Part shown: piece by piece, positions 34,816-55,372 of the stretch
Position numbering within the stretch: position 1 is the first letter of the stretch
How the letters are laid out: every line of letters starts with the position of its first letter
NCBI RefSeq assembly: GCF_000803265.1
Contig: NW_014575406.1
Span: 62,001-126,000 of the forward strand
DNA: 64,000 nucleotides
Source of the DNA: Ordospora colligata OC4
Lineage: Eukaryota > Microsporidia > Ordosporidae
Reading direction: 5' to 3'
Translations under genes and position numbers: made by a program
Notes under the pieces: generated by a model
The model's input: only the letters and a program-made list of their open reading frames with translations
What the model was told of the DNA's origin: nothing
The model's database searches: none

Positions 34816-35109
34816 TTTTTCTATTAAATGTGCTACTTCGTTTAAAGTTTTGTGGATTCATTATGTGTTGTTGTGTAGTATTTGTTATAAGGGTAGAAGC
34901 AGAGATATTTTTGTGGATTTATGTGAAGATATTTTTATAATAAATGATCTTTGATGCTTTATAAACAATGAATTTATGTGGTTAATTTCGTTACATGTAA
35001 CATCAAGGTATAATTATTGTATAATAGGATACGTTTGGTAATTGTTACATAATGTAAAATCCATTGTTGCCTAGTCCTAATATAAATGAGAATTACAAAC
35101 TGTGTATAT

Positions 35110-36370
35110 GAGGATATATGTTTAATGGGTATTCTAGTGACAGAAACAAATCTTGAGATATGGGAATGTAAGATAAAATCAATTGATGGGCTATAAAAGT
35201 ACACATGTCTGGCTGAACTAAAGTCTTCTGAATGTGAAGGATTGATAGTAATGGAAATTCCATCAACTATGCAAAATTTAACATATCTCAATATTTCTTT
35301 CGGTGCTGAACTCAAGGATGTGTTATGATTAAGTGGATGAAGAAGTTGCAAACTATTAATTTTTATCATAATAAAAACATAACACAACTTGATGTGAGTG
35401 GAATGGCTTAGAATTTACGATTGTTATATGCTGAAAGAGATATATTGAGATTAGATAAATTGAAAAAACTAGATTAACTGTATATTGGAACAAATTATGG
35501 TATAGCAAAGTTCGATGTGAGTAAATTTGTGAATGCTAAGCGTTTTAGTGTTTGGGGGCTTTCTGCATGATAGGAGATAGTATCATTAGACGGAATAGAA
35601 TTTTTAACCCACCGTTATATCATAAACAATCATAGCACAATACAACTCATTGTAGGTTCATTAGTAAAACTGAAATATATATCCATTTGAGGATCTAAGA
35701 CATTGCAGTAAATTATAGGCCTGAACAAAGTAGCGTAATTTGATTACTTTAAATTGGCAGATACTCCAATGTAACAAAGATGGATTTAAGTGAGATGTTA
35801 TCACTGAAATAACTGGATATGTATAGATGTTTTGCATCACAAGAGATAATGGGATTAGATAAGTTAACAAAATTAAGTTGCATGGAGCTAATCCTAACCT
35901 ATCAATACAACTTGATATAATTAGATTAAAAACTAAAGAGATTTAAGATTCAAGAATGCACAATACTACAAAAGAGAATAGGATTAAATAAATTAGTAAT
36001 CATATTATGTATTAATCTCTGGAATAGCCCTAATATAACAACAATACAATTGCATTGTTGAATTAAAGAAAATTACACTCTGGAGTAATAAAAACTTAAG
36101 AATATAGTAGGAATCGAAAGTTTATGTGAGCTGAGAAAAATAGACGATTTTGACATCAGTCACGTAATAATTACATTGTACCATGGTCAATGATTAATCT
36201 GGCAAATAATGAGAGAATACCCTTAATTGAGATTACAGGCTGTAAACTTATTGCAAGAAGTGATGGGGAAAATACAGCATGATATAAGGATTTGATAAAT
36301 TCATTTCCTACAAATAGGATTAAAGGATTAGAAACATTATTAGAAAAATATTCAAAATTCACTTTAATGA
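35110..36370 (+). pseudogene. decayed leucine-rich-repeat gene
   Basis: Read across frames, the plus strand shows many repeats of the form L-x2-L-x-L-x-I-x-LDVS, for example TTQLDVSGMA, LRLDKLKKLD, KFDVSKF and MGLDKLTKLS. They are interrupted by numerous TAA, TAG and TGA codons and by shifts of frame, and no start with a long frame exists. The repeat type is like the DVS-containing LRRs of surface-type proteins in some microsporidia and bacteria. This is therefore an old, non-functional LRR gene. It is the leftmost part of the AT-rich decayed island and opposite in direction to the other remnants. Confidence 0.65.
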
Positions 36371-36689
36371 GATAAAAATATAGAATTTACAAAGTACTCC
36401 AGAAAAACCTACAAAAATTTATGGTCATAAAATGTAAGTCATATGGCATTAACTAATACCAACACAGTAATATTTGATTTATCATTAATTACACACAAAT
36501 AAATTTTACTATTATATTTATAGAATTCTCACTGTTTCAATCAGCTCTATATAAGTATAAACTCATAATCACATATCTTAACTGTTTAGTCATCACTCAT
36601 ACTGCATACATATTTTTTATTTTACCCCCAAAATAGGCATTAATAATTAATCATTAGCATGTTTTTATTATAAATTCAATAATTGTTAA

Positions 36690-38100
36690 CTCTCACTTTA
36701 CTATTGCAAACATTTGATTGCTCACTTCAGTATTATTATTGATGTCCATACTCTGTATTAGCCATCTTGTTATCACTATACAAGATGCAAATGCTATCAC
36801 TAACACATTCTTAGTCGTTACAGTATTCCCACTCTCAGTATCATTACCATTATTATAAAAAGCTACTATATTCGCTATTACCATTATCAAGCTTATCACT
36901 GTCATCAATATGTTAATTATATTCATATAATTACTTATAAAAACTGTACAAACTCTCATTACCGCTATTGATAAACTACCTCACACCACATAGACCTGTT
37001 TCCAGAATTCACATATAGAATCACACTTATATCATTAACACTGTTGATGTAGCCATCATAATTTTGTTAATGATCATTCTATCAAACATTTCATATTCAT
37101 TCTTCAATGAACTCCTTATATTTATTACTATAGCCGCTACTTCAATAAATATTATTAACATAACTAAAGCTATTGGTGTTATCTTATTCATTTGTTCTTG
37201 TCTTTCTATTCTGTTTTTTATATTTATTAATTCTGATTTGTTACTTTCATCGGGAAAATTTTCGAACAATTTATTAAATTTTGTCTCTAAATCATTATTT
37301 TTGTGCTTGCTCATAAATTCATATATTGTATTGCGGACAAGATGGTCGGAATCCTTGCTTTTTATTTTCAAACCAATTTTAAGCATTGATACCATATTCA
37401 TGAACGATTCGGTATTATTCATATCTATGCCAGTTATATATTGGCCTAGATGTTTTAATAACCATACTTTTACCCATACATTAAGATATTCAGTACCTTT
37501 ATAAGTATTTGTAATTTCTACAAAATCATCAAAATTAAAAATACGCCTTTATCTATAACCGATTCGGCATTCTTATCTTTCTTCAACCTTTCCATTTCCA
37601 TTTTCAAAAAGAGTTTTAACGTAGATTTGGTTTCACCAGAAATATTTGGCTTAAGATTAGAATCATCAAGATCGGCAACACAATTAAAAAAATATTTAGT
37701 GCCTTATAGTTGTGTATTATATAACGATTGCCAAATTTGCTTTGTAATGCCTTAAAAAAAATTTCTCTTCGATCATAAGTCTCAAAGTATTTGTTAAGAA
37801 ACACCTTTTTATCTCTTCAAATTCATCATGCTTCAAAAAGTCCATGAAAATTTCAACCGTTATAGTATTATTCATGAGATTTTCCTGATTGCCATTACTG
37901 TTTTTATCCTTAAAAACATTAATTATCTCGATTACTTAATCTTCATTATTTTCTATATGATAAGGGTTGTTCCGTTTTCCACATTATATTCTAATTCACT
38001 ATGCATTTGCCATATTCATACAATTTCATTCTCACTCAATACGCTTGAATTATATACACACTACATACACTACACATATATAGTCATGCCAAACACATAT
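36690..38100 (-). pseudogene. broken membrane-tailed helical protein gene, remnant C
   Basis: The minus strand holds several open pieces in different frames: one with LNIFLIVLPILMILILSQIFLV near 37,650, one with KLFENFPDESNKSELINIKN and a membrane segment ITPIALVMLIIFIEVAAIVINI near 37,150, and one with two membrane segments near 36,800. Between them reading resumes only after frameshifts or stops. The pattern of a charged helical body and a hydrophobic C-terminal part recurs in remnants A and B. It is very AT-rich. It could be one gene with many lesions or two adjoining fragments. Confidence 0.5.
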
Positions 38101-38179
38101 ATAAATACAATCTAACAATCATTTATTACTCATCACACACATAATATTGCTCACCATATTATTCATATTATGTCACATC

Positions 38180-39240
38180 CAAAATATCTTGCATACTTCG
38201 ATTTTCTTGTTGATTGCAACTTCTCATTAACATCTTTATCCATAAATATCAACAAAAACAATATAATCGCCATGATCCACTACTTTCCATCATTCCTCAT
38301 ATACTCCACAATATTACTCATCACGTTATCTTTAACATTTATTTCAAACTCTTATCATTAATTACCTAATTCGCTTACATTACCTGATTATGTCCACTAT
38401 CATCACTTGCTTTTTGTAACAACTTTTCTTTCATTACGTTAATAAACTCTTTTATAATTCTATTGTAAGTATTCTCAGAAAGTTCCTTATTACCATGCAT
38501 TTCAGTAAAGAATAAATCACATATCATATTAAGTGTTATTCCATTAACAATTTCTCAATATCCATCATTAGATATGGTTTTTTAATCATTCAATTGTTCT
38601 TGGCTTATACAACTTAATTTTTTATTCTGATTATATATATTACATATTTCATCATATAAATAGCTAAATTTCTTCCTATCAATTTCCATCATAAGCGTAT
38701 GGTAGGCTTTATGAACTCTTCATCGACCACATCATATTTATCCTCTTCAGATCCACTATAAATCATGATCTCAAGTTGTTTAATCACAAACATTGCTTTA
38801 ATCGTTCTGAGAATATTTGATTTATGTTTTTTACTACACTTCAGCTCGTTCTTTTCTATGCTATCTATTATTCCTTTTATTTCATATATATCACTTTAAA
38901 AAATATAGATCAAATAATTAGTTAATATTCTTTCACGCTTTTCTTTATCATCCTTCTTATGTTGATCCAATACATTCCCAACCTGCATAATTCTAAACAC
39001 ATTCATAACCATATTTCTCTCACCGCTATCTTTCATAAAATTCACCAGAGGTTGTACCATCCTTAGATATCTACAACAGGCATGCTTATCATTAGAACAC
39101 TCTTTCAGTCCTTTATATAAATTTCCTTATTTCTTTAACAAATCATTGTTATTATCATTACATGCATTACTCAATTCACGTAATTTTGTTTTAATCCAAT
39201 TGAGGCAAGTTTCTGCTCTATTCTTCTTATCATCACTTTT
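38180..39240 (-). pseudogene. broken helical protein gene, remnant B
   Basis: An ATG at about 39,238 opens MKSDDKKNRAETCLNWIKTK. The frame then stays readable for about 180 codons apart from isolated stops, with blocks such as NVFRIMQVGNVLDQHKKDD and DKYDVVDEEFIKPTI, before a frame change to a block ending ELSENTYNRIIKEF. A hydrophobic piece, IMAIILFLLIFM, occurs near 38,260. Few lesions separate long sensible segments, so inactivation looks more recent than in the LRR remnant. No product family is recognised. Confidence 0.55.
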
Positions 39241-39885
39241 CATCTTCAAGAATCACTGCATATACATACATAACAACATGTGACCAGTCATGTATTCATT
39301 GTTCCTTTATTCCACTCAATAATCACATATTCAAGTAACCATTTGCATATACCTCCTTACTTCGTTATTTCTTTATTTCACATACTTACACAAATACATC
39401 CAATTAATAATTATTCGTTTATTCTGTCATCTATGATTTACTATCATTTAATACTTTAATATTACCTTACATCATTGTTTATTGTTCCAATAATTTACAT
39501 ATTTTCATCTATTACTCTACCATTGTAATACTCTACTCTTCAATCATCAATAATCTCATTCAAATGCATTCTCTGCATCATAACCAGTGATTGTTACTAC
39601 AACTACAACAACTAATCCAAATGCATTCGCAATCGTACCATTTATGGACTTACCTAATATCTCACTATCATTCTTATTCTCACCATCTTATAATTCTACC
39701 ATCATTCTTCCTAACATCATCAATTGTATCATTCTTACCATCCTATTATTGTAGAATTTCATTATTCACTGGATTATCCTTTACTATATACACAAATACC
39801 TTATCATCACATCTAGAACAATATAATAATCATTCATTCCTTTGTTATTCACACAAAGTATTATGCTGCTTGAGGTTCGCTAATG
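39241..39885. other. AT-rich stretch without supported gene
   Basis: This 645-bp stretch lies between remnants A and B. It is AT-rich, with pyrimidine-rich runs of CAT and ATTC-like words on the plus strand, but I see no convincing coding or RNA signal. A short plus-strand open frame near 39,600 is low-complexity and not believed. Confidence 0.45.
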
Positions 39886-42674
39886 TCATCTGCTACCAGA
39901 ATTGCTTGTTGTGGGAGACTCTATATTTATAATAGTCGATACCAACAGAAGTAGTACAATAACTATAGTCACATATTTTTCTCCAAATATCATAAAATTT
40001 GCAATTTTAGTCTTGAATTCACTTGGTATCTCTTTCTTTGCAATTGTAGCTAGCTTATTATTATATGGTAGTTCATTTAGTATGTCTATTTTCATGGCAC
40101 CATCATTAACTTGATTCTGTTTTGATGTATCATGTGGGTTTTTGGCTTTTGCTGCTTTCGATCATCTTGTTCTTTTTTCAATATTATTCTGTTTGAATCA
40201 ATAAACTTCATGATTATATATTTCAAATAATTATTTCCAAATGTTTTACTGTCAGGCATCTCCACTCGTAATACATCAAGTAATATCTTATTCATGAATT
40301 TTTCATCTCCATTCAATTTATTCTGTAATATTTTATTTTTATCCAGTACCTTTATTGTACAAATACAAAATTAAACATTGTATTCTTATTTTGTTCCTGA
40401 ATTTTAGTAGCATCTTGCCCAGATAACTGGTTACTCTTCATATGAATCACAATACTACTTAACACATTCTTCATAATTTTATAGTTCTTAATTCGGATCG
40501 ATTATTTTTTCTGGTTTTGTTCGGTCTTTGCCACCACGCTGGTATTTTTATAATTATCAGTTTGAGTCGGTCTATCTTTCTGATTTTGTTCGGGATTTGC
40601 CAGTTTGTTAATATTTTGATACTTACCCGTTTGAATCGATTCTTTCGTCTGATATTGTTTGGGATTTATCACTTTGCTAATAAACTTAATTGCTACTAAA
40701 TGATTAAGACGTTCAAATCGTCTTATAGTTATAATATAATTAGTACTATTGTCTTTGTATATCATGTTCAATTTCTCTATATCAATCCTATCATCATCTT
40801 TTAGACTATTTTCAATTCCTTCCTCTTTTGTATAATTAGGTACTAACCTTTGATGGTCTTTTTTCAAGTCTTTCTTTATTTTATCTAGAAAAGATTTTGT
40901 CCATACAATCCAATATATCTATTACTTTAGCAGGCTCAAGAAGATTCAATATTCCTGCTGCTTTCTCAGGTTTATTAAGATGTTTTAACACATCTGCTGA
41001 ACGTTCAGAATCAAATTGCATCAATATTCTTTTTATAAGTTGATCTTCTATAAAATTCAACACTTCTGCCATATGATAATCTTTTATATCATTGCATATT
41101 TCTTTTGCATCTTTTGAATCAAGACAAATCAGAATTTTAGTTACAGAATGGCATTCCTTGTGACTTAATAGCGTTTCTACTAACAGTGCAAATTCTTTAC
41201 GTTTATCTTTCATAACATTCACCACTTCTTCAATCGTTATTACATCTGGTGTATTATCAACTTCATTTATAGATTTTAACACTTTAAATATCTTTGCTAT
41301 AGACTCAACATTCCTATTTCTTTTAATCTCATCTTTTTCATTCGTCAATATTCTTACAAATGCATCCTTTACTATCAGTTTTGGTTTGCCTGATTCACCA
41401 GGTATTCCATAAAGAATCACATTAATCAGCCCATGGTCAAAACTAGAAAGCGTCTCAAAATTCATCCCATTATTATCAATGAAACACTTCAAGATATAAT
41501 ACTTAGTTATCTCTTCTGTAACTTCATTCACCATTTCCACCAATCTTATAGAATCCTTCATGTCTTTCATATATTCCTCTACTATAGTCCACACTAAATT
41601 TTCATTTTGAATTCCATTCAATTTTTTTTGTAATATCAAATCCTTCCGTACCTCTTTTTTTATATTCTCCAACCGCAGCCAAAATTCCTGCACTTATAAA
41701 CTTAAAAATAATACCTAGTAGACCGATTTGTTTCTTATGCGTTTTAGATTCTCTAACTACAGCTTGTACTCCGTTTCATCTTTAATATCTTTCAACACTG
41801 TATTTAGTAAAATATTTTGAGTGTCTTCTTTTTCATTCAGAATCTTTTCTATTAATTTTCTTGCTGCTATTTTTAATACATGTTCATCTTTGATTGCTGC
41901 AATATCATCAATAACTCCTGCCAAACCCAAGTGACCATCAATGCCTCCCATTATATCCATTACATAACTCACTACCCCTTCAAGATCACTAGATGATTTA
42001 AAACAAGGCTGCAATTTTATAACATCCTATATAATTTTTCGTGTCTTATCCTCTTTGTCAATTTTATCTGATGATATTTTATTCAAATCTTCAATCATTC
42101 TTTTCAAAGACATCTTATGTATCAACCAAGGTAAATCTTTATTTCCATTATTTGGTCTAAATCCTAAATCCATTTACTATAATATTCAAGGTACGGGAGT
42201 TTGAATTTTTTTCATGAATTCTATTCAACTCATTTATAATAATCCGGTTACTTTCATAGCCTTTTGAATAATCGCATATAAATTTCCACGAAATATTGAT
42301 ATCTTCAATGTTATCCGAATTAAATTTATTAATAGCATCCACAAAAATGTTTCCATCGTTTGATTCAATACACCTATTATAAACATAATCACGTCATTTT
42401 GGATTAGAAATACAAACACAGAAATAAACACTTGCCCATGAAAAATTCGTTTTCGGAAGTTCTTAAGAACCATTTCTTCATCTAATTCATTAAATATTTG
42501 ATCTGCATTAGTATTCTTCTTTATTAGAAACGTATGCTTGAAAATAGGAATAAAAAATTCAGGTGTGTGATCGAGAGATTCAATCTGCTTCAGTTCACCT
42601 CCATCATTCAATGTTGATATACACTTATTTATCCATTCAATTGTTCTTTTGTTTAACATCCATTTGTGATGCAT
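39886..42674 (-). pseudogene. broken membrane-tailed helical protein gene, remnant A
   Basis: This is a series of minus-strand open pieces in the same direction: 42,674-42,400 (TIEWINKCISTLNDGGELK), 42,342-42,157, 42,014-41,757, a 270-codon piece at 41,693-40,881 (with VESIAKIFKVLKSINEVDN), 40,867-40,502, 40,316-40,092 and a final piece at 40,095-39,886 with membrane segment YVTIVIVLLLLVSTIINI. Neighbouring pieces join with single stops or one-base frame changes, so together they look like one gene of roughly 900 codons with at least five lesions. Architecture resembles remnants B and C. The family is unknown; the piece at 40,881-41,693 has no true ATG at its start. Confidence 0.6.
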
Positions 42675-43036
42675 CCATTATGTTATAATGCGATTTCACT
42701 CTTGATCATTATCCATAATTGTGAGGGTTTCAACTACTTATTATAAATTGCATAATATACACTTATTATTATCTCTCACATCATATCCAGGTGTTGTACT
42801 AATATCAAATTCAAAAATTCTCATCCATCCAAAAATATTACTGTTCTACCTCCCCTGCTCTCCTACACCTGTGTACTTCACCCTAGAATCAATGCCATGC
42901 CTCAAACACCGACTTTCATTGATTCACATTCCATTCATAAACCATGAAGCATCATGAACTGATCATGCTGATATACTGTTGTAAATTGATAACTCAATCG
43001 CAAGTATGGGGAGTTTGGAGATACCTCGATAATCGA
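42675..43036. other. intergenic region upstream of tRNA-Pro
   Basis: This 362-bp stretch is the right border of the decayed island. I see no supported gene. Composition becomes less AT-rich toward the tRNA. Confidence 0.45.
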
Positions 43037-43038
43037 GG
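43024..43038. repeat. perfect inverted repeat abutting tRNA-Pro
   Basis: CCTCGATAATCGAGG is a perfect palindrome with 7-bp arms around a single A. Its last two bases are the first two of the tRNA, so it spans the 5' processing point. Confidence 0.6.
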
Positions 43039-43108
43039 TGGTATGGTCTAGTGGTATGATGTCTGCTTAGGGTGCAGGAGATTTCGGGTTCGATTCCCGA
43101 TACCGCCC
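43037..43108 (+). tRNA. tRNA-Pro(AGG)
   Basis: The 72-base sequence folds as a cloverleaf: acceptor GGTGGTA with TACCGCC, D arm around GGTCTAGTGGTATGA, anticodon stem TCTGC/GCAGG with loop TTAGGGT giving anticodon AGG, and the T arm CGGGTTCGATTCCCG. There is no intron. The B-box GGTTCGATTCC is intact and a TTTT Pol III terminator follows at once. Confidence 0.95.
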
Positions 43109-43259
43109 CTTTTACCACATTCACGTACATAATCACATTCAAATTATTGTCTAACTTTCATCAATCCAACCAACAATTCCAATTCTCATAAGACTAACAC
43201 TCCACATGTACTAATATCTCTCACATAAAACACAATAAAGACACATTACCTCCACTTAT

Positions 43260-43813
43260 TTATTTCCTGGCTCCTCCCTTCTTCTTGTTAAACCTCTCAG
43301 AATAGAACTTCAGCTCCTCTCCTTGAAGGACATGTCCTTGAGCCATTCCTATCTGTCCAGGTCTCGAGGTAATAATCGCATACAGATGCCCCTTCTCAAA
43401 GCCCTCGTGCAGCTCTGCATCCTGTTCTGCTCCAACCGTCGCCACATCCTCCTTGAATGTCTCTGCTGAAATCTTCACAACAGAGCTCTTCGTCAGAGTG
43501 TTTGTACGCACCAACTCATTAGAGCTGGGATGATACACAACCTGAATCATGTTTGCCTTTCTGATATTACCTGTTGACATAAATCGGAAATGCCCCTCCT
43601 CAAGCTTCAATGCTCGCTGCTTCTTGTTTCCTCCACGCACTCTAACAGCCACTACCTTTCTCGCTCCAATCTTCGTTGCACTTGGCTGAGATCCTGCCCT
43701 GTTGTTCCTCTTCTTGCGTGAAATCACTGCCTGTGCTCCAGTCTTTCTGCGCTTGTGCTCTCCTCTGTGGTTTACTCCTAAAATTACACTTCATTCAAAG
43801 CTCACTTACCCAT
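43260..43813 (-). CDS. RPS8: ribosomal protein eS8, gene with one intron
   Basis: This 173-residue protein of the small subunit is encoded by exon 1 (ATGG, 43,810-43,813) and exon 2 (43,260-43,777). Without splicing the frame lacks its N-terminus; removing the 32-bp intron gives MGVNHRGEHKRRKTGAQAV, the expected eS8 start, continuous with ISRKKR. The body shows TKIGARKVVAVRVRGGNKK and VVYHPSSNELVRTNTLTK, both diagnostic of eS8. GCCCTGAA directly precedes the ATG. The gene is convergent with nothing on its left but the tRNA-Pro gene, 151 bp away. Confidence 0.95.
43778..43809 (-). other. 32-bp spliceosomal intron in eS8
   Basis: On the minus strand the intron starts GTAAGT and ends TAATTTTAG. 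It follows the fourth base of the coding sequence. A TAAT branch-like motif lies immediately before the acceptor, as in other microsporidian introns, and the intron contains TGA so read-through would fail. Confidence 0.93.
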
Positions 43814-43933
43814 TTCAGGGCAATTTTTTTCAATCGTTTATTCATGCCAGCAGTTGCCTGGGCTCCACTATCACATTCTATTGTATGTAAACTAAAAAAG
43901 CTTACACATTCATCTACTAAATCTATTGCATCT

Positions 43934-44131
43934 TCACTCACTCTTCTCAGATGCACTAAGATGCGCTAATGACGAACCAAATATCCCATAGAACATATCA
44001 GACATTGACTCCATAATCTTCTCTGTATTGATTCTTGGAATAAACTCCATCCCCACATACACTACAAACGTGCTTAGTGATCCGATGAACATTATGGATA
44101 TAAAAATCATCTTCAGTGTCATCATCACCAT
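43934..44131 (-). CDS. small single-pass membrane protein
   Basis: This is a 65-residue open frame with one membrane segment (MIFISIMFIGSLSTFVVYVG) followed by a polar tail ending SASEKSE. A different frame of the same start region begins at an ATG at 44,139 and reads MTDGDDDTEDD, an acidic leader, before a TTTTT run. A one-base length error at that run would join the acidic leader to the membrane segment and make a more plausible tail-anchored or Tom22-like protein. I have not assumed that; the frame given is the one in the sequence. Function is unknown. Confidence 0.45.
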   Translation of the reverse strand: MVMMTLKMIFISIMFIGSLSTFVVYVGMEFIPRINTEKIMESMSDMFYGIFGSSLAHLSASEKSE

Positions 44132-44351
44132 CAGTCATCTGAATTCATATAAACACGGTACCCAATCACATCTTTGTATTGTCAACACTTCCTCATACTC
44201 TCAAACATTTTATTTTTCATGTTTTAGGTTCTAAGTTCATGCAGTTATTTAGCTCTGTACCATTCAATAATTTATATTCTACATCATTCCTTCATTTGAA
44301 TTCTACATCACTTATGCAATCATTTAATTTTACATCATTCATGCATTCACC

Positions 44352-44819
44352 GTGCAATTCACCGAACAGAATGGCGTTAGATGCTACTGCATGCTCAACA
44401 CAGAAGACCTTGCAATGCTCTACTGCGACACATGTGCAAACTGGCTACATACCGTTTGTTGTGGATTCCTCAGCAACACAGACAAGCGCATTCCAAACGG
44501 GAAATACACCTGTCTCATCTGCTCAAATCACATCACAAAAGTCGAATGTTGCAATGCATTGTTTAGACGTGTCATCTCAGTCATATACAATGAAAACTTT
44601 CTGGGCAGGTCATGGCTTTGTAATAGGCTCCAGATAAATTCCTCAAGAGCATACAAGCAAATCCAGAAAATGATCAATCAGGGCCTTCTCATCGCCACTA
44701 AAACACCCAAAGGCACCGTTCAATACCAGGTTGTCACCACACATACTGCAAAAAACACAATCAAAAAACACTTCTCAATCTCCGCCTACCCAGACACACA
44801 AAAACACTCAAATAGCTAA
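44352..44819 (+). CDS. Hop1 C-terminal chromatin-binding module (PHD + winged helix)
   Basis: The frame encodes a PHD finger, CYCMLNTEDLAMLYCDTC...WLHTVCCGF...CLIC, followed by a winged-helix-like segment LFRRVISVIYNENFLGRSWL and QIQKMINQGLLIATKT. This combination and the linking words match the chromatin-binding region at the C-terminus of Hop1, a meiotic axis protein. There is no HORMA domain; only 219 bp lie between this frame and the upstream gene. There is also no in-frame ATG before the PHD: a TAA stop lies at 44,325 and the first ATG (44,391) is inside the finger. The start at GTG 44,352 is nominal. A tiny intron, a frame error or a fragment are all possible. Confidence 0.55.
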   Translation: MQFTEQNGVRCYCMLNTEDLAMLYCDTCANWLHTVCCGFLSNTDKRIPNGKYTCLICSNHITKVECCNALFRRVISVIYNENFLGRSWLCNRLQINSSRAYKQIQKMINQGLLIATKTPKGTVQYQVVTTHTAKNTIKKHFSISAYPDTQKHSNS

Positions 44820-50990: not shown

Positions 50991-51212
50991 GGGCTTTCCA
51001 ATCAACAACCTATTTGACTTCACTGTTTATCCCTGTGCTTATCAACATCTGCTCAGTCAGGTTTTGTTTCATAATTACATAATGAAATATCTATGAGTTT
51101 ATGCAACCTTATTCATTTATACCTACTTTATTGTGCAGTATTATTCATTCTCTTTCAACATCGTTCACTCTCATATCTAGTTCTTCATTCACTCTCACTC
51201 TCATTCACTTTA

Positions 51213-51701
51213 TTATTCAATACCATTCATTCCAATAATAACAGGCTCCTTCCTTTCATTCTCTGTTCTCACTGCAATGCAATACTCACTCTTCCTCAGA
51301 CCAACTTCAAACACAACATCTTGCTTAACAACACAGCAGTAGACTCCTTGCAAAATCCCACACAGAACCTCAATGCATTCATCAGTCTTCCTGCTGTACT
51401 TCAACACACAAAAGTCTTCCAAGGTAATAAAACATGCATCAACCCTCGGTGTATACGAAAAGTACAGCGGAAAAAAACATTTCGACACACTCTCCATCAC
51501 CTTCTCCACATCCATCTCCTCCACAGGCTTTGCATACATAAAGAAGTCATCTGATATCCGTTCTCCAATCCGCTTTCCTACCTCAAATAATCTCTTCCTA
51601 CTACTTCCTATATCATCCATATGCACCTTGCTTATAAATGACGCAAACATCAGCGCAAATGCATCAGCTCCCATTCCATGCTCATCACGCCTATTTATCA
51701 T
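51213..51701 (-). CDS. BET3: TRAPP subunit Bet3-like
   Basis: This is a 162-residue protein. It resembles Bet3: KRIGERISDDFFMYAK (family: YNIGxRLIDDFLA), a central LYFSYTPRVDACFI (ITPxVxC...FSLIL), and ECIEVLCGILQGVYCCV (family: LCGIIRGALEMV). Bet3 is a core subunit of TRAPP complexes that activate Ypt1/Rab1 in ER-Golgi traffic. Trs31 or Trs33 are related alternatives. The frame is open upstream through TTG, but the first ATG, 14 bases after a CCCC run, is used. It is divergent from the archease gene with 79 bp between starts. Confidence 0.7.
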   Translation of the reverse strand: MINRRDEHGMGADAFALMFASFISKVHMDDIGSSRKRLFEVGKRIGERISDDFFMYAKPVEEMDVEKVMESVSKCFFPLYFSYTPRVDACFITLEDFCVLKYSRKTDECIEVLCGILQGVYCCVVKQDVVFEVGLRKSEYCIAVRTENERKEPVIIGMNGIE

Positions 51702-51776
51702 TGATATCCTACTGGGGCTTGTCTCAAACAAATAGCAAGCCTACATCTCATCACACATATCGCATGTTTATTCCTT

Positions 51777-51780
51777 CCCC
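51777..51780 (+). promoter_or_regulatory. CCCC directly abutting the archease fusion start
   Basis: CCCC abuts the ATG at 51,781, supporting translation from the first ATG and thus inclusion of the cysteine-rich N-terminal extension. Confidence 0.6.
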
Positions 51781-52377
51781 ATGTCAGGCACTCAATCCTG
51801 CAAATGCTCTTGCACTGACAAATGTTGCTGCACAGTTGGAAATAAATGTAGATGCACACTTGAAAGTAGAAGTAAATATTCTAACACGACATCACTCTAT
51901 GTCAAAGACACACAATGTGAATGTATGACTCAGAACACACATAACTTAGATCGATCTGTACAACACCACTCTACCATAGAGTTCCTTGACCATCCTGCAG
52001 ATGTGATGATGCATTGCACAAGCATCAATATTGAAAGGCTCTATGAAACAGCGATCTGTGGAATGATGCAATATGCAATCAGAGCATCACCAACTCCAAT
52101 GTCTACAACTCACGGCAAAGTCACATTAAATGCACAGACACACGAGATCATGGTGGTGGATCTTTTATCACAGTTCATAGACCTGTTGTATGCAGAACAA
52201 CTTGCTGCTGTGTCAGCACGAGTATGCATATACAATGATTACCTTGTATGCAATTACACAGCAATAGATTCAGCAGAATGTGAACCACTATGTGAGATCA
52301 AGGCAATTACGCTATGTGGGCTAAAAGTGTATGAAAAGGATAATGTTTTTCACCTGTACTGCATATTTGATGTGTGA
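51781..52377 (+). CDS. archease with metallothionein-like N-terminal extension
   Basis: This is a 198-residue protein. Residues 65-198 match archease: IEFLDHPADVMMHCTS (family: YEYLDHTADVQLHAWG), YETAICGMMQYAI, and EIKAITLCGLKVYEKD (EVKAITYHAMQV). Archease promotes guanylation and turnover of the RtcB RNA ligase, in tRNA splicing and RNA repair. Residues 1-51 are unlike archease: ten cysteines in C-x-C and CCC groups (SCKCSCTDKCCC, then NKCRC, and TQCEC near residue 46), like a metallothionein. The start is supported by CCCC abutting the ATG; the next in-frame ATG, at residue 49, would give a conventional archease. Confidence 0.85.
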   Translation: MSGTQSCKCSCTDKCCCTVGNKCRCTLESRSKYSNTTSLYVKDTQCECMTQNTHNLDRSVQHHSTIEFLDHPADVMMHCTSINIERLYETAICGMMQYAIRASPTPMSTTHGKVTLNAQTHEIMVVDLLSQFIDLLYAEQLAAVSARVCIYNDYLVCNYTAIDSAECEPLCEIKAITLCGLKVYEKDNVFHLYCIFDV

Positions 52378-52526
52378 CTGTGCCACCAATCTTCAATCGC
52401 TGTAGCACTATTGATAATAATGGCACATCATAAACAAAGTATACTCAATATGAGCCAGGTAAATAAGATTTTCCAACGAAGAGTGATTATAACTAAAGTA
52501 TAATTATGTAATACCAATATTCTTTA

Positions 52527-53168
52527 TTACTTGCTCTCTGTCTGTGTATTTTCGGTGACTTCTATGAAATTATAGTTCAGTAAGTCTGTGGGCGGTTTGT
52601 CTTCTCTTGAAGGCTGTGATGTCTTCTTGAGAATAGATTTAAGTTTATTTTTCAATGTATTCAGACCAGTAATCAGCTTTTCTACTTCCTTCAATGAATC
52701 CGACATTTCCTTAATATCGCCCTGACTGATCACAATATCTTTTTGTGTATTTGATGGCTTGAGTAGAAGCGATGCAGATATCGGGGTCTCAAATGTAAGA
52801 TCCGGCTGTACTTCTGTTTGGCTTGAAACAGTCTTTTTCTGTTTGCTGCCCATGTACCTTTTGTTTCTTCCTGTGCTGGCTGTATTGAGTGTTTTAATAG
52901 CATTTTCTTTACTTTTCATCATAGAAAGGCGTTTGGTGGTGTTTTGTGGTTGATTCAGTTCTTTTATGTGATTGTTATCTGTTCGATTTATGTCTTCCAC
53001 TTTTACACCATGGGTTTTGTCTTTTGGGTTCTGGTTTATGTCTGTGTCGTTTATTGTATTCTCCAGGAATCTTGTGAAGACATTGTCTGTGGAATGTTCT
53101 GATGAGTCCTCCTCGTATTTGAAGCATGTCACTGCAAGTATCAATGATACAATTACTGCCACAAGCAT
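52527..53168 (-). CDS. predicted secreted or membrane-anchored protein
   Basis: This is a 213-residue protein with a hydrophobic leader MLVAVIVSLILAVTCFKYEE, most likely a signal peptide or anchor. The remainder is Asn, Thr, Lys and Ser rich and lacks structured-looking segments until a helix at about 145-190 (KEVEKLITGLNTLKNKLK). No family is recognised. Like the 23,500-28,130 secreted genes it lacks a CCC/GGG run before its ATG. Confidence 0.6.
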   Translation of the reverse strand: MLVAVIVSLILAVTCFKYEEDSSEHSTDNVFTRFLENTINDTDINQNPKDKTHGVKVEDINRTDNNHIKELNQPQNTTKRLSMMKSKENAIKTLNTASTGRNKRYMGSKQKKTVSSQTEVQPDLTFETPISASLLLKPSNTQKDIVISQGDIKEMSDSLKEVEKLITGLNTLKNKLKSILKKTSQPSREDKPPTDLLNYNFIEVTENTQTESK

Positions 53169-55193: not shown

Positions 55194-55372
55194 AAGGCTG
55201 GTCAGAACACAGCAGGCTAGGACTAAACGTCTATATATCATCAAGTAGACACAAGTGTCCATCTTCAATACAGCCTACTGCCTCGACTCGTCATCCCAGC
55301 CCTAAGGATCGCAATTGCTGCAAATGGTATCGATAGATTTACTAAACAAATGATTCTGAATAGTACCTTCGA
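55194..55372 (-). ncRNA. U3 small nucleolar RNA
   Basis: On the minus strand the 5' part reads GGTACTATTCAGAATCATTTG, matching the U3 box A region (GGATCATTTCTATAG). Downstream come a C'-like ATGACGA, a C box TGATGAT and a D box CTGA. The terminal stem GGCTGG/CCAGCC and a second helix CAGTAGGCTG with TAGCCTGCTG close the 3' domain, and TTTT follows. U3 base-pairs with pre-rRNA in 18S processing. Both ends are estimated to within about ten bases. The size, about 180 nt, is below that of yeast and human U3. Confidence 0.8.

Follow-up and report, generated by a model that had tools for sequence, protein, structure and literature searches.

A possible metallothionein-like N-terminal extension of archease in the microsporidian Ordospora colligata

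Archease enables the guanylylation of the RNA ligase RtcB. In the passages of PMC10944509 that deal with the human proteins, D51, D178, and the terminal carboxylate of archease bind a third Mn2+ in the active site that the two proteins share, K156 of archease binds phosphate, and RTCB is described as ligating well only with Mn2+, Zn2+ and Co2+ being inhibitory. The N-terminal residues 10–21 of human archease become resolved when the protein is bound to RTCB, according to sections of PMC10944509 and PMC12263435. Human RTCB is inactivated by Cu(II) or peroxide, with Cu(II) promoting oxidative inactivation, and the active-site Cys of metazoan RTCB is protected by PYROXD1, as reported in parts of PMC12263435. 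Guanylylated RTCB is described in the same parts as being itself partly protected, and the need for a further guard is therefore limited.

In the window, which is the 64,000-nucleotide stretch of O. colligata OC4 DNA analyzed here, an open frame at 51,781–52,377 of the plus strand encodes 198 aa and runs from a Cys-rich segment into an archease without any stop between them. Residues 49–198 (51,925–52,377, plus strand) are a genuine archease, the family already named in the sequence-only reading that preceded this work. The profile PF01951 (cut-off 25 bits) matches residues 67–198 with 68.9 bits, the AF2 block means are at least 91 from residue 81 onward, and the predicted core folds like human archease: the best Foldseek matches were the human archease entries 8odo, 8odp, and 8btx (E 2.9e-9 to 6.4e-9), and all 11 matches at E ≤0.001 were archeases, 1jw3 being counted as one on the description given for PF01951 (MTH1598) and on passages of PMC10944509. 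D74, K174, and D197, which we match to the human D51, K156, and D178 named in those passages, are present in each alignment row that has letters at these positions. The public record of the organism's own protein, P0002, is identical in sequence but 150 aa long, and begins at residue 49. Six Cys residues of the core (79, 157, 167, 171, 179, and 194; window 52,015–52,362) are nearly invariant among relatives, making up 15/17 to 17/17 of the letters in their columns and 15/16 at residue 79, with the O. colligata protein counted twice. In a separate alignment human archease is without several of the six, which may build a structural metal site or be no more than a signature of the group.

The segment in front of the archease (residues 1–48; 51,781–51,924, plus strand) had been described as metallothionein-like, with ten Cys in its first 51 residues arranged in C-x-C and CCC groups. 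The count is correct and the label is justified by the density and spacing of the Cys residues, all ten of which lie within residues 1–48, at positions 7, 9, 11, 15, 16, 17, 23, 25, 46, and 48. Eight of them form a dense cluster within the 19 residues from 7 to 25, and a second C-x-C occupies 46–48. The spacers between them are K, S, T, D, or N, one of the 21 residues of the core (6–26) is hydrophobic, and the core contains no aromatic residue. The tail is predicted to be disordered, residues 1–59 being without structure in AF2 with pLDDT <50, as expected whether the segment is translated or not. When the 141 bases following the ATG were subjected to 50,000 dinucleotide shuffles, 1872 of the shuffled sequences (3.7%) stayed open, and none of these 1872 contained at least ten Cys, or at least eight Cys in 19 residues, a rate that, like those from the genome, was calculated only once the feature had been selected. 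The window and 20 further stretches of this genome, 264 kb in total, contain 1950 stop-free stretches of at least 48 codons, of which 2 reached at least eight Cys in 19 residues; ten Cys in 48 residues alone is less rare (10/1950). The other stretch with eight Cys in 19 residues, L023:2841 (+), contains the only denser Cys cluster in the 264 kb, a CCLCCLCCLCC run with hydrophobic spacers, and is probably not a gene.

Two other interpretations of the same DNA were considered. The sole GTAA in 51,781–52,000, located at 51,872, could be paired with the AG at 51,906, but such an intron would remove 36 nt in frame, and therefore the fusion would survive. An ORF in an overlapping frame (51,638–51,928, plus strand) has no family match, is partly antisense to the neighboring TRAPP gene, and was rejected as a gene. 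An Rfam search of 51,001–53,000 gave no match.

Relatives of the 48-residue segment were sought in several collections. No family was found in Pfam at E up to 10, where HMMER filters drop most weak matches, or in NCBIfam at E up to 1, and no PDB sequence was found at E up to 10. No candidate homologue appeared among ∼5.8 billion proteins by a method that needs shared 5-residue words, and protein and DNA searches for a second copy in the source genome (2.28 Mb, 13 contigs) returned only the segment itself. A scan of IMG/VR with the protein gave one pattern match, none being confirmed. Among the literature matches listed for microsporidia or Encephalitozoon together with metallothionein, none concerned a microsporidian metallothionein by its title; the main text of PMC4589312, on small microsporidian CDSs, contains neither "cysteine" nor "metallothionein"; and the papers listed as naming both archease and metallothionein include none on such a fusion, as judged by title and the start of the abstract. 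In terms of its sequence, the tail resembles metallothioneins but falls in none of their described families.

The signals around the two candidate ATGs bear on whether the long form is made. The CCCC that the sequence-only reading had placed directly before the start is indeed there, at 51,777–51,780 of the plus strand, and according to passages of PMC2803860 on 5′RACE in Encephalitozoon cuniculi, leaders are <7 nt long and a CCC-like motif stands directly before most starts. In the genome of O. colligata, the share of ATGs with CCC no more than 15 nt away is 49.4% for first ATGs (those of ORFs of at least 150 codons; n = 170), 2.9% for non-coding ATGs (n = 4109), and 7.3% for antisense ATGs (n = 3464), a ∼17-fold enrichment of the signal at first ATGs of long ORFs over non-coding ones; at a distance of up to 6 nt the respective values are 17.6, 1.1, and 2.4%. 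Both CCC and GGG are missing from the 15-nt range at the ATG of residue 49. The start signal is good but not decisive, and its absence at M49 is not decisive either, because neither CCC nor GGG accompanies 76 of the 170 first ATGs; in 34 of those 76 ORFs, one of the two motifs occurs at a subsequent ATG no more than 100 codons downstream. The base at +4 is T at the long ATG and A at M49. In the E. cuniculi table contained in PMC2803860, T is rare at this position (10.9%) and A is favored (37.7%). The +4 base favors residue 49 by that table, and less so by the counts of this genome, in which, of 95 first ATGs with the motif (the one at 51,781 among them), 17 have T and 36 have A.

These observations bear on the principal rival explanation, in which the locus encodes an ordinary 150-aa archease starting at M49 and the Cys-rich segment belongs to an untranslated promoter, its open frame and richness in TGY being accidental. 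The A at +4 of M49 and the considerable share of first ATGs without CCC and GGG agree with such a start, but the explanation requires the coincidence of a frame left open (3.7% of shuffles), of CCC at the first ATG of the segment (as at 2.9% of non-coding ones), and of a Cys cluster of a kind absent from every open shuffle, together with a true start that has no CCC or GGG nearby. The signals also bear on a special case of translation from the long ATG. Short leaders make initiation leaky, and a very short 5′ leader might allow some ribosomes to pass the first ATG, giving both the fused form and plain archease from M49. The unfavorable T at +4 of the long ATG and the retention, as M49, of a Met at the position where relatives start would suit two products, as would the short leaders of E. 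cuniculi described in the same passages of PMC2803860. The proposal, however, applies the rules of E. cuniculi to another species, and both of its products are predicted ones; we consider it improbable.

The archeases of other organisms speak for a start at or near M49. The protein search gave 18 proteins, namely the O. colligata protein, P0003 from E. cuniculi, and 16 others; the alignment contains the first of these twice, P0003, and 14 of the 16 others, with the weak matches P0018 and P0019 left out. The most similar archease outside the source genome is that of Ordospora pajunii (77% identity over 53% of the query), ahead of those of Encephalitozoon species. Its record, P0012 (HK407_02g03880), begins at the equivalent of residue 95/96 without the first catalytic Asp and is probably a truncated gene model or reflects a frame interruption upstream. 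It is the one among the 15 outside relatives aligned that has no N-end; in the remaining 14, whose starts are those predicted in their records, the Cys-rich segment, which the sequence-only reading had proposed to look for in related microsporidia, occurs in none, and none has more than one Cys before the FLDH-like motif. This absence corresponds to one of the two outcomes that the sequence-only reading had named as speaking against its proposal. Thirteen of them start 5–21 residues ahead of this motif and E. cuniculi starts 52 ahead. The records of E. intestinalis, E. romaleae, and E. hellem, and P0007, start at the equivalent of residue 49, where a Met of E. cuniculi also aligns, and the extended E. 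cuniculi record has no Cys-rich sequence upstream. Both these starts and that of the public O. colligata record are what a protein initiated at M49 only would give. Met49 itself, as the presumed ancestral start, would be preserved whichever reading is right. As no relative, homologue, paralogue, or metallothionein family was matched, the tail is at best a recent and lineage-specific N-terminal extension, as far as the records show.

Codon use points in the same direction as the relatives. By synonymous codon use the segment scores −7.15 bits, and a score as low as this is found for 4.5% of 178 gene starts versus 20.3% of 1637 intergenic stop-free segments; the density near the score is 2.8% for gene starts versus 15.6% for intergenic segments, or ∼5:1 against coding. 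Segment codon use thus lies nearer to intergenic DNA, in favor of a start at M49, but the test is weak because the archease part itself scores 0.27, near zero. A first codon score, which was dominated by amino-acid content and took shifted frames as its background, was set aside; its synonymous version and the test against the intergenic background are both against coding.

On balance, we estimate a probability of about 0.55 that residues 1–48 are translated, alone or beside the short form. For the long form stand the CCC at its ATG with none at M49, the open frame, and the metallothionein-like hydrophilic spacing; against it stand the relatives, the public record, the low synonymous codon use, and the T at +4. 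The earlier statement that the fused form is probably translated is supported by the enriched start signal and not by related sequences or codon use. Exclusive use of M49 has, in our estimate, somewhat less than an even chance.

If translation does begin at the long ATG, the upstream CCCC-ATG at 51,781 would put a 48-residue, probably disordered Cys tail in frame with the old start M49. To its left lies a TRAPP-component gene (51,213–51,701, minus strand; PF04051, 36.1 bits) arranged head to head with archease, and the divergent intergenic space of 79 bp up to the long ATG (51,702–51,780) contains GGGG at 51,714–51,717, which is CCCC on the minus strand. The start-to-start gap is 79 bp with the long form and 223 bp with the residue-49 start, both of which are inside the range of the 37 head-to-head gaps measured, this gap included. 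The tail may equally well have arisen by capture of upstream DNA or by gene fusion. A particular form of the latter is that a small stand-alone metallothionein gene located upstream joined archease by the loss of its stop. The cluster begins six residues past the ATG and stops well short of M49, as such a gene might leave it, but the search of ∼5.8 billion proteins for shared 5-residue words yielded no candidate, no second copy was found in the genome, and the extended E. cuniculi record is without such upstream sequence; we regard this origin as very improbable. Elsewhere in the window, a pyridine-nucleotide oxidoreductase of PF07992 (48,284–49,216, minus strand), which we read as thioredoxin reductase, is separated from archease by three genes, and a U3 snoRNA lies at 55,197–55,372 of the minus strand (46.4 bits against a gathering cut-off of 34). 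The region 35,000–44,800 has few long ORFs within an otherwise dense stretch and includes a tRNA (43,037–43,108) and an MgtE_N match (40,881–41,570, minus strand).

The partner of archease is present in the organism. A search for RtcB, which had been suggested as a check, found a single, full-length match in the genome (488.1 bits; G000:C1), and it has Asp, Cys, and four His residues in motifs matching human D119, C122, H227, H259, H353, and H428, as assigned by motif rather than by alignment. We infer translation of the long form, metal binding, and protection of RtcB to be parts of one mechanism. By docking at the RtcB active site, archease drives Mn2+/GTP guanylylation; the flexible tail would capture soft metals (Zn2+, Cu+/Cu2+) as well as oxidants at this site, shielding the catalytic Cys of RtcB, which is the job done by PYROXD1 in animals. 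If the segment is translated, its likeliest function would be that of a local thiol buffer, although we consider this mechanism in its entirety unlikely. Human RTCB needs Mn2+ and thiolate clusters have a preference for Zn and Cu, so that buffering or protection is a better fit than delivery. Metal delivery to RtcB, which had been put forward at first, is unlikely given that Zn2+ and Co2+ inhibit the human enzyme and Cu(II) inactivates it, as stated in parts of PMC10944509 and PMC12263435. PF07992 matches three places in the genome. We read the two above the cut-off as thioredoxin-reductase-like and ferredoxin-reductase-like, the third being below it; with this general family profile, no PYROXD1-like protein was recognized among the three. 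That a parasite without a recognized PYROXD1 might have fused a metal-thiolate buffer to its RtcB activator, in a new way of protecting RNA ligation, is likewise unlikely. If the long form is made, this archease would carry a metal-binding module, suggesting that the protection of the RtcB active site from metals and oxidants can be solved without PYROXD1. If not, the locus encodes an ordinary archease and calls for caution in reading first ATGs in compact genomes.

Compared with known archeases of PF01951, such as those of human and Pyrococcus horikoshii, the protein encoded at 51,781–52,377 is alike in its fold, in its catalytic Asp, Lys, and C-terminal Asp, and in the presence of RtcB in the genome. 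It differs by the 48-residue Cys-rich front piece, if the first ATG is used, which was not seen in the known relatives compared here, and by the six core Cys nearly invariant among its relatives. With metallothioneins as a kind, and no particular family of them, the segment shares a dense C-x-C/CC pattern with K/S/T spacers and a core without aromatics; unlike a free-standing metallothionein, it belongs to a longer ORF, and its metal binding is putative. With PYROXD1 it would share the task of guarding the active site of RtcB against Cu and oxidants. PYROXD1, however, is described in parts of PMC12263435 as a flavoenzyme acting prior to guanylylation and to the exclusion of archease, whereas the tail would be a passive thiol carried on archease itself.
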